A stretch of DNA of 64,000 nt from Hymenobacter cheonanensis (GTDB lineage: Bacteria > Bacteroidota > Bacteroidia > Cytophagales > Hymenobacteraceae), in the NCBI RefSeq assembly GCF_030581075.1, contig NZ_JAUQSW010000004.1, positions 62,001-126,000 of the forward strand, written 5' to 3'. The position numbers and the translations under genes are program-made. This document shows positions 45,114-47,721 of the stretch, piece after piece. Under the pieces are notes generated by a model, which did no database searches, was not told the origin of the DNA, and worked only from the letters and a program-made list of their open reading frames with translations. Position 1 is the stretch's first letter, and every line of letters begins with the position of its first letter.

Positions 45114-46097
45114 TTACGCAGGTTGCAAAATGTGCAGAATGCGTTGCATATCCTCCACCGAATCGAAGGAAATCTTGATTTCGCCGCGCCCCTGTGGGCT
45201 GGGCCGCAGCTGCACCTTCGAGCCGAAGTAGTCGGTGAGCTGGCGCTCGGTGCGGCGCAGCTCGGCCACGGGCACTACAGGCGTGGCCGGGGGGGCAGGG
45301 CTAGCGGCGGCCGGGCTGCCCTCGGGGCGGGCGTAGCCATTGCGCACCAGCTCCTCTACGCGGCGCACCGACAGGTCTTCGGCCACAATGCGGCGGTAGA
45401 GGTCTACCTGCTGCTGCGGGTCTTCGATGTTGATGAGCGCCCTAGCGTGGCCCATGCCAATCACCGAGTCGCGCAGGCCAATCTGGATGCTGGGCGGCAG
45501 CTTCAGCAGGCGCAGGTAGTTGGTCACGGTCGAGCGGTTTTTGCCCACGCGCTCGCCCAGGTCTTCCTGTCGCAGCTGGCATTCGCTCAGCAAGCGCTGG
45601 TAGCTGAGGGCGATTTCGATGGCATTCAGGTTTTCGCGCTGAATGTTCTCGATGAGCGCCATTTCCAGCATCTGCTGGTCGTCGGCCTTGCGCACGTAGG
45701 CCGGAATGGTGTCCAGGCCGGCCAGCTTGCTGGCTTGCAGGCGGCGCTCGCCCGAGATGAGCTGGTACGAGTTGGTGCCCAGCTGGCGCACCGTTACGGG
45801 CTGAATAATGCCCTGAATCTTAATGCTATCGGCCAGCTCGGCCAGGGCTTCCTGGTCGAAGTGCGTGCGCGGCTGGTAGGGGTTGGCCTCAATGTGGCCC
45901 ACCGGAATCAGGCCCACCGTGCTCACGGGGTTAGGCGTGGCCGTAAGCACGCGCTCGCTGGGCTTGTCGTAGCTGCCCTCAATAAGCGCGTTGAGGCCCC
46001 GGCCCAGGCCGCCGATGCGGCGCTTGGCGGCGCCCGCCACGCCGGGGTTGGCGTTGAGGGCAGCCTGGATTTTTTCTTCGTTCTTCTCTGCGGACAT
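45114..46097 (-). CDS. parB: Chromosome-partitioning protein ParB (Spo0J)
   Basis: The start at 46097 (MSAEKNEEKIQAAL) gives 327 residues. Conserved blocks are GLGRGLNALI near the N-terminus (ParA-stimulating region), NPYQPRTHFDQEALAEL, the CTP-binding GERRLQASKLAGL, ENIQRENLNAIE and the helix-turn-helix VGKNRSTVTNYLRLLKLP. ParB spreads from parS sites as a CTP-loaded clamp. I found no canonical parS sequence (TGTTNCACGTGNAACA type) in the window. Two unrelated small genes separate it from parA, which normally sits directly upstream. Confidence 0.96.
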   Translation of the reverse strand: MSAEKNEEKIQAALNANPGVAGAAKRRIGGLGRGLNALIEGSYDKPSERVLTATPNPVSTVGLIPVGHIEANPYQPRTHFDQEALAELADSIKIQGIIQPVTVRQLGTNSYQLISGERRLQASKLAGLDTIPAYVRKADDQQMLEMALIENIQRENLNAIEIALSYQRLLSECQLRQEDLGERVGKNRSTVTNYLRLLKLPPSIQIGLRDSVIGMGHARALINIEDPQQQVDLYRRIVAEDLSVRRVEELVRNGYARPEGSPAAASPAPPATPVVPVAELRRTERQLTDYFGSKVQLRPSPQGRGEIKISFDSVEDMQRILHILQPA

Positions 46098-46244
46098 CTT
46101 GGCTAGGGTCTGGGGGCCGAATGGCCGGCCCGCCCAGAACTTCAAAATTACGGACTAGGGGGCGAAGGGCAAGCTGGGGGCCCAGCGGTCGCAGTTCTAT
46201 TCGATACTTCTCGTCCAGCCTTCGGGGCTTGTCAGCAGCAATTA

Positions 46245-46475
46245 TCAGCTAGCAGTGCGTGGTCGGCGCGGCTGCCGCTTGGTTGGCGCATTTACACTTA
46301 CCACTTTATCACCCTTCATCACAATGCGATGGCCGCCGCGGGCGATAGTGCGTAACTGCTCGCCAATATTATCGAGCAACGCGTTGTAGCTAGCTGTTGA
46401 GCCCGTGAGAGCCAGCAGTTCTGCTTTAATTTCCGATGGTTCTTCGGCGGTAGTGATGGTCTTTTTCATACGCAT
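46245..46475 (-). CDS. Small protein of the par-operon cassette, unknown
   Basis: The 76-residue product has a helical middle (YNALLDNIGEQLRTIARGGH), a short beta-like segment (RIVMKGDKVVSVNAP) and a basic tail (KRQPRRPRTAS). I do not recognise a family. It starts 8 bases after the stop of the 120-residue upstream gene, so the two are almost surely co-transcribed. Size and pairing are compatible with an antitoxin or accessory partner, which is inference only. GC content looks lower than in parA and parB. Confidence 0.6.
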   Translation of the reverse strand: MRMKKTITTAEEPSEIKAELLALTGSTASYNALLDNIGEQLRTIARGGHRIVMKGDKVVSVNAPTKRQPRRPRTAS

Positions 46476-46483
46476 AGCACAAG

Positions 46484-46846
46484 TTAAATGGCTTTTACCA
46501 AGCGCACTAAATCGTTATCGGCGATGTGGCTGGTCTTGATAATGCAGCGCTTGTGTGGTTGGATTAAGAACACGCATAGAATCTGATGAAGTTTCCCTTT
46601 AAACTCAAACAGCCCCACGTAGCGCAACTGATTCTTGGTACTATACTGAGTTAGCTCTACCCAAATAGTGCTCGGGTCCACGGCAGCTTGCGCAACTTCT
46701 TTGAATCCAGCCCCCCGATGCGAGTGGTGGTTTTTACGGTCTTCAAGATGATTGACGTAGGCTGTCTGCCAAAATAATTCAAACCCCCGTCGGCGGTCAT
46801 TGAGAAAAGGATAAACTTTTTCGTTGGAAGTATAATAAGCAGACAT
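46484..46846 (-). CDS. Small protein of the par-operon cassette, possible BECR-like nuclease
   Basis: The 120-residue product is not from a family I can name with confidence. The middle runs AYVNHLEDRKNHHSHRG, then VAQAAVDPSTIWVELTQYS, QLRYVGLFEFKGKLHQILCV and RCIIKTSHIADND. The order (His-rich start, DPxxI, strand with a Tyr, strand ending in IIKTSH) recalls the barnase-EndoU-colicin-RelE-like (BECR) nuclease pattern of phage and toxin proteins. It is the first gene of a two-gene cassette lying between parA (upstream) and parB (downstream). Codon composition looks less GC-rich than its neighbours, as in acquired DNA. Confidence 0.6.
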   Translation of the reverse strand: MSAYYTSNEKVYPFLNDRRRGFELFWQTAYVNHLEDRKNHHSHRGAGFKEVAQAAVDPSTIWVELTQYSTKNQLRYVGLFEFKGKLHQILCVFLIQPHKRCIIKTSHIADNDLVRLVKAI

Positions 46847-46911
46847 GTAGGCTGTAGAATTTGAGCAGGTATAGACGCAGCTTACAGCTTATCAGTATCC
46901 GGCAACTGGCC

Positions 46912-47721
46912 TTACACCAGCTCATCCTCCGGCGCCTCTTCGGGCCTAGCCTCTACACTATTTTTCTCCACTATTTCGCGGGCCAGGTTGAGGTAGCTCA
47001 CGGCGCCTTTACTCTCGGCGTCGTGCAGGATGACGGGAATGCCGAAGCTCGGCGACTCGCTCAACTTCACGTTGCGCGGGATGATGGTGTCGAACACGAG
47101 CTGCTGGAAATGCAGCTGCACTTCCTCCACCACCTGGTTGCTGAGGCGCAGGCGCACGTCGTACATCGTGAGCAGAATGCCCTCGATTTCGAGGTCAGTA
47201 TTGAGGCGGCTCTGAATTATCTTAATGGTATTCAAGAGCTTGCCCAGACCTTCGAGGGCGAAGTACTCGCACTGCACCGGAATAATAACCGAGTGCGCCG
47301 CCGTGAGGGCGTTCACTGTGATGAGGCCCAGCGAGGGCGAGCAGTCGATGATGATGAAGTCGTACTGGTCGGCCAGGGGGCGCAGGGCCTCCTTCATTTT
47401 CTCCTCGCGGTTGGGCAGGTTTATCATCTCCACCTCGGCGCCCACCAGGTCGATGTGCGAGGGCATGAGGTCGAGGTGCGGCAGGATGTTGGTTTGCAAG
47501 ATGATATCCTGCGGAGCAATGCCATCGACCATGCACTCGTACACGCTGTTTTCGATGTCTTTGGGGTCGAAGCCCACGCCCGAGGTGGCGTTGGCCTGCG
47601 GGTCGGCGTCTACTAGCAGGGTGCGGTAGTCCAGGGCCGCCAAGGAGGCGGCCAGGTTGATGGCCGAGGTGGTTTTGCCGACGCCACCTTTCTGGTTGGC
47701 TACCGCGATAATTTTGCCCAT
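46912..47721 (-). CDS. parA: Chromosome-partitioning ATPase ParA (Soj)
   Basis: The 269-residue product opens with the deviant Walker A motif [19 protein letters not shown], then [14 protein letters not shown] and [15 protein letters not shown] as the other nucleotide-binding parts. It forms ATP-dependent gradients on the nucleoid and works with ParB in chromosome segregation. In related genomes parB follows directly; here two extra genes intervene. Confidence 0.96.

Follow-up and report, generated by a model that had tools for sequence, protein, structure and literature searches.

A candidate toxin-antitoxin module in a variable slot between parA and parB of Hymenobacter

Type II toxin-antitoxin systems of the HigBA and RelBE kinds, whose toxins belong to the RelE/ParE superfamily and have the BECR fold, join a small toxin-sized protein to a small partner, and in higBA the toxin gene comes first. 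In chromosomal hotspots and in the toxin-antitoxin cassette arrays of superintegrons, small codirectional cassettes are exchanged at one fixed site. The active sites of BECR proteins have been described as comprising an N-terminal helix with a catalytic His, a sheet of four to five strands and a C-terminal Thr or Ser (PMC5512222), and experiments in Synechocystis have established an unrelated pair, PIN-COG2442, as a toxin-antitoxin system (PMC3834315).

The locus considered here lies in a stretch of 64,000 nucleotides from Hymenobacter cheonanensis (the window), in which two small genes, orf120 and orf76, stand between parA and parB. They share with HigBA and RelBE the combination of a toxin-sized protein and a small partner, and with higBA the order in which the putative toxin gene comes first. 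Unlike the toxins of those systems, orf120 has no match to RelE/HigB or other BECR toxin families in Pfam, and for none of the 13 members of its own family do the Pfam matches at E<=10 include a BECR toxin family known from type II systems. The site in which the genes lie likewise exchanges small codirectional cassettes; unlike a superintegron it contains no integrase gene, and recombination-site-like repeats were not noticed on a non-systematic inspection. We estimate at roughly 0.6 the probability that orf120-orf76 is a horizontally acquired module, probably of type II toxin-antitoxin character with a BECR-layout toxin encoded first, residing in an exchangeable slot. The features on which the argument turns are as follows.

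46912 to 47721, minus strand: parA (Pfam AAA_31, E 1.4e-67); the stop codon marks where the variable slot is bounded on the left
46484 to 46846, minus strand: orf120, candidate toxin; 120-aa open reading frame with conserved H33, H43 and T/S105
46245 to 46475, minus strand: orf76, candidate antitoxin or partner; 76-aa open reading frame with a basic C-terminal tail
46173 to 46911, minus strand: variable slot, with apparent wholesale DNA exchange between closely related species
46143 to 46172, minus strand: parB promoter-like element, TTG-N19-TAATTTTG, of the Bacteroidota -33/-7 type
45114 to 46097, minus strand: parB (Pfam ParB_N, E 9.5e-35; HTH_ParB, E 2.9e-34; ParB_C)

The gene pair and its setting

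The flanking genes are, by their domain content, the chromosomal parA and parB, and a parA match is present in all 120 same-genus genomes searched. Between them, on the same minus strand and 8 nt apart, orf120 and orf76 occupy exactly the positions that a first-pass annotation had assigned to a two-gene cassette. That annotation had also judged the pair to be lower in GC than its flanks, and the composition bears this out: the GC fraction is 0.455 for orf120 and 0.537 for orf76 against 0.591 for parA and 0.647 for parB, and at third codon positions it is 0.51 and 0.545 against 0.83 and 0.84. The composition looks foreign, and the pair is probably a horizontally acquired two-gene module. Both are real coding genes; the possibility that they are chance open reading frames is ruled out by the conservation of a homologous pair in H. 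coccineus with a coding type of substitution. The two orf120 homologs differ at codon positions 1, 2 and 3 with frequencies of 0.24, 0.20 and 0.60 (dN 0.23, dS saturated), and orf76 is homologous to the H. coccineus partner (39% identity over 44 aa, E 3e-8).

Promoters of Bacteroidota follow a -33/-7 pattern, and the element upstream of parB, which in the window reads TTGCCCTTCG...TAATTTTG, resembles it. Its part TAnnTTTG is found upstream of parB in 106 of 107 Hymenobacter genomes, against a mean of 4.1 in mononucleotide shuffles, and the full motif in 48 of the 107 against a shuffled mean of 0.5. The mechanically called parB frame begins at an upstream TTG inside this element; the ATG at 46097 (MSAEK), which lies downstream of the element, is the more probable true start. 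The element probably provides parB with a separate promoter beyond the downstream end of the slot, and the tolerance of cargo there would be accounted for in this way. No counterpart of the element was seen ahead of orf120, so transcripts of the pair probably come from parA.

The orf120 family and the nuclease question

Single-sequence searches were insufficient to define the family of orf120, with one search of 99 related genomes returning just one relative, another of 395 genomes of the class returning none besides the gene of the window itself, and scans of genome and viral contigs, together with tblastn of plasmids and phages, returning none. Profile searches gathered 13 usable members, mostly from Hymenobacter with a few elsewhere in the same order, and the full profile found no further ones in a phylum-wide genome sample. 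The closest relative, 72% identical, lies directly downstream of a Rep3 replication initiator gene on a 6.5-kb H. coccineus contig that also encodes a MobA-type relaxase and a NikA/MobC-like mobilisation protein, and which is therefore probably a small mobilizable plasmid. Other members are found in unrelated contexts away from parAB, one of them between nuoN-like and vanX-like genes.

Directly after the first gene, all 13 loci carry a short same-strand open reading frame (58 to 113 aa) that overlaps the stop of the first gene or begins within 12 nt of it. A partner ATG lies within -30 to +25 nt of that stop at 12 of the 13 loci, compared with 1 of 41 long open reading frames in the window; at the thirteenth the start is a GTG or TTG, or an ATG slightly farther upstream. 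Leave-one-out partner profiles placed the true sequence in the top 2% of shuffles for 4 of 12 and gave nothing for several. Common ancestry of all partners is on this basis a tentative suggestion, and those beyond the window and H. coccineus pair appear to diverge fast. Profile searches of the PDB with either the toxin family or the partner family gave nothing significant, and the candidate family is absent from the libraries searched. Two small, closely spaced genes of which the second evolves fast, with a scattered distribution and in one case an apparent plasmid location, resemble a toxin-antitoxin module. The pair displays both the conserved two-gene arrangement of small proteins that marks type II systems (13 of 13 loci, as a predicted operon) and their patchy, mobile distribution including plasmids (1 of 107 genomes at the parA-parB site; the Rep3/relaxase contig).

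The first-pass annotation had seen in orf120 a resemblance to the BECR nuclease pattern, and the evidence divides on this point. In its favor, residues 34-103 of orf120 show a sub-threshold match to PBECR2 (PF18810), a phage BECR-like nuclease domain, with 18.3 bits (E 0.0028). Against it, this score is below the curated cut-off of 27.1 bits, the window member is the only one of the 13 to match, and its 72% identical H. coccineus homolog has no Pfam match; moreover, an HMM-HMM comparison of the family with PBECR2 sequences in hhalign scored 13.2, a value reached by 12/100 and 7/100 column-shuffled controls. A profile-profile similarity obtained with three sequences (E 0.031) was accordingly discarded, as the better set did no better than shuffled columns. 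Two AlphaFold runs on a three-sequence alignment gave models of low confidence (pLDDT 59 and 46), which agree on a helix, a second helix, four strands and a final helix, with a first strand added in one run, and when they were compared by Foldseek with the PDB and with viral models, no match was significant. In the family alignment H33 and T/S105 are each conserved in 13 of 13 members. By the low-confidence model, the invariant His33 would belong to the first of the long helices and Thr/Ser105 to the final strand, a placement that fits BECR active sites as described in the literature (PMC5512222), and the predicted order of elements is near the RelE topology (PMC11980606). Taken as a BECR-type RNase, orf120 would be credited with a function to which we assign slightly less than even odds. 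PBECR2 proper, as it occurs in the genus, sits at the end of large proteins, whereas orf120 is a stand-alone gene with a partner; in the genomes designated L033, L034 and L035 the true domains form the C-terminus of large, prophage-looking proteins, and related copies are present in viral contigs.

The parA-parB gap across the genus

That parA and parB normally abut, as had been supposed, is true of the sampled genomes from other families of the order, in which the gap measures -11 to 103 bp (11 measurable genomes, start codons being approximate), and fails for Hymenobacter, in which it extends from 157 to >2900 bp. Among the 107 Hymenobacter genomes with both genes on the fetched stretch (those with parB beyond about 3.4 kb or beyond a contig end being excluded), the gap is <=350 bp in 42, between 350 and 500 bp in 5, and >500 bp in 60; gaps above 350 bp thus number 65/107 here against 5/82 for the next intergene, from parB to the following gene. 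In seven genomes (L082, L089, L091, L093, L094, L102 and L122) the stretch of about 3.4 kb that follows parA yielded no parB.

When the window is compared with 11 close relatives, no clear similarity is seen from the parA stop to the promoter-like element, and similarity resumes at the start of that element, 77-82 bp before the parB ATG. The exchangeable stretch runs between these two points, so that a cassette can lie within it without necessarily interfering with the expression of parB. Different cassettes occur even in species whose parA genes are 97-99% identical. At this site orf120-orf76 is present in 1 of 107 genomes, the closest species carrying others, so that the sharp presence/absence pattern expected of an inserted element is observed and lineage-wide conservation of both genes in this order is not. 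The proposal that the pair rides in an essential segregation operon is weakened, both by the conserved promoter-like element that separates the cassette from parB and by the nature of the slot, an insertion site peculiar to the genus that takes up other cargo besides toxin-antitoxin genes.

Most of the gaps above 350 bp hold cassettes, and these are of varied kinds. The inserts fall into about ten families, and each of the 95 copies detected runs in the same direction as parA, a count that includes related species and hence copies that are not independent events. DUF433 occurs in 23 genomes, 7 of which also carry DUF5615, forming VapBC-type pairs. We take DUF433 to be equivalent to COG2442, and on that assumption the DUF433-DUF5615 pair is a PIN-COG2442 system of the VapBC10 type in the same slot of 7 other Hymenobacter species; its proteins are unrelated to orf120 and orf76, and its antitoxin gene comes first. 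Another 110-130 aa family, present in 23 genomes (for example L069, L066 and L085), bears the motif EEGGRKTPxxQxIRWDF and is fused to DUF433 in the close relatives L004, L007, L010 and L011; the pieces scanned had no Pfam match outside DUF433 and no PDB match, and a suspected resemblance to an EF-Tu domain was not confirmed. The slot further holds an S1-domain-like family in 13 genomes (ribosomal protein S1 match, E 5.7e-15), a family of 87-90 aa in 6, large secreted proteins, provisionally named PA14-like, in 6, and in one genome (L043), as the first open reading frame of the gap, a homolog of the contact-dependent inhibition immunity protein CdiI_3 (E 5.5e-13). The PA14-like secreted and S1-like cassettes are not known toxin-antitoxin components.

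Readings of the pair and of the slot

In the scheme we favor, orf120, the first gene, would encode the toxin, a small endoribonuclease laid out in the RelE/HigB-like (BECR) manner, and orf76 a rapidly diverging antitoxin; the two would be transcribed by read-through from parA, and small cassettes would be swapped into the slot between the parA stop and parB's own promoter, leaving parB undisturbed. The toxin-partner pair envisaged by the first-pass annotation finds support in the small downstream partner at 13 of 13 loci, the scattered contexts and the one member that lies next to rep on a probable plasmid contig, while toxicity, neutralisation, RNase activity, promoter function and read-through transcription are what we infer. 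The same two genes might instead serve defence or inter-element competition rather than addiction, as an effector that resembles a nuclease, or an enzyme of phage origin, accompanied by a small regulator or immunity partner. The sole family match of orf120 is after all to a phage nuclease domain, and in one relative the slot holds a CdiI_3-like immunity protein; nevertheless, PADLOC yielded no meaningful match, searches of viral contigs and phage records found no relative, and a tight bicistron of such size is typical of toxin-antitoxin modules, and we regard a conflict role as unlikely. The codirectional position between parA and parB might also suggest that the pair assists chromosome segregation in this lineage alone, through ParA, ParB or parS, yet the pair is at the site in a single one of 107 genomes, its relatives lie away from parAB with one on a plasmid contig, and unrelated proteins fill the slot in other species, which together make such a role very improbable.

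An explanation of a different order deals with the site and leaves orf120-orf76 free to be a toxin-antitoxin module: the slot may be a neutral, tolerant intergene in which, given the parB promoter, any small DNA can land and the type of cargo is without meaning. The heterogeneity of the cargo, which includes large secreted proteins and short inverted repeats, and the 42 of 107 gaps of <=350 bp without a recognised cassette are in keeping with this, but the 95 copies detected share the direction of parA without exception and a few small families recur across many species, for which random insertion alone is not readily sufficient; we consider neutrality a serious possibility that falls short of being the better bet. 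Equally tentative is the more ambitious view that the slot is a dedicated exchange site in which toxin-antitoxin and other conflict genes replace one another repeatedly and are tied to the expression of segregation genes, with orf120-orf76 the first member to be described of a new toxin-antitoxin family. The window pair exemplifies a broader pattern: within the parAB locus the genus has a cassette slot of its own. A search of one literature library found no description of such a slot in Hymenobacter, which does not in itself prove novelty. The implications are twofold. The pair is a candidate toxin-antitoxin family that is directly testable as toxin and antitoxin, and the locus would constitute a genus-wide hotspot for small foreign cassettes within parAB, from which parB is apparently insulated by having a promoter to itself. 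This raises the question of whether modules gain persistence where their deletion risks damage to segregation genes.

Full parS sites are absent from the parA-parB gaps and from the window. The gaps of 26 of the 107 genomes, among them L044, L040 and L107 and not that of the window, contain a split palindrome, GTTCCACG-N10..13-CGTGGAAC, that resembles a pair of parS half-sites set apart by a T-rich loop and in most of the 26 is located some 92-124 bp ahead of the parB start; it possibly serves ParB autoregulation or acts as a terminator. REP-like inverted repeats, CGTCATGCTGA...TCAGCATGACG, occur in the gaps of L015, L012, L006 and L016, either where no gene is apparent or beside a single gene.
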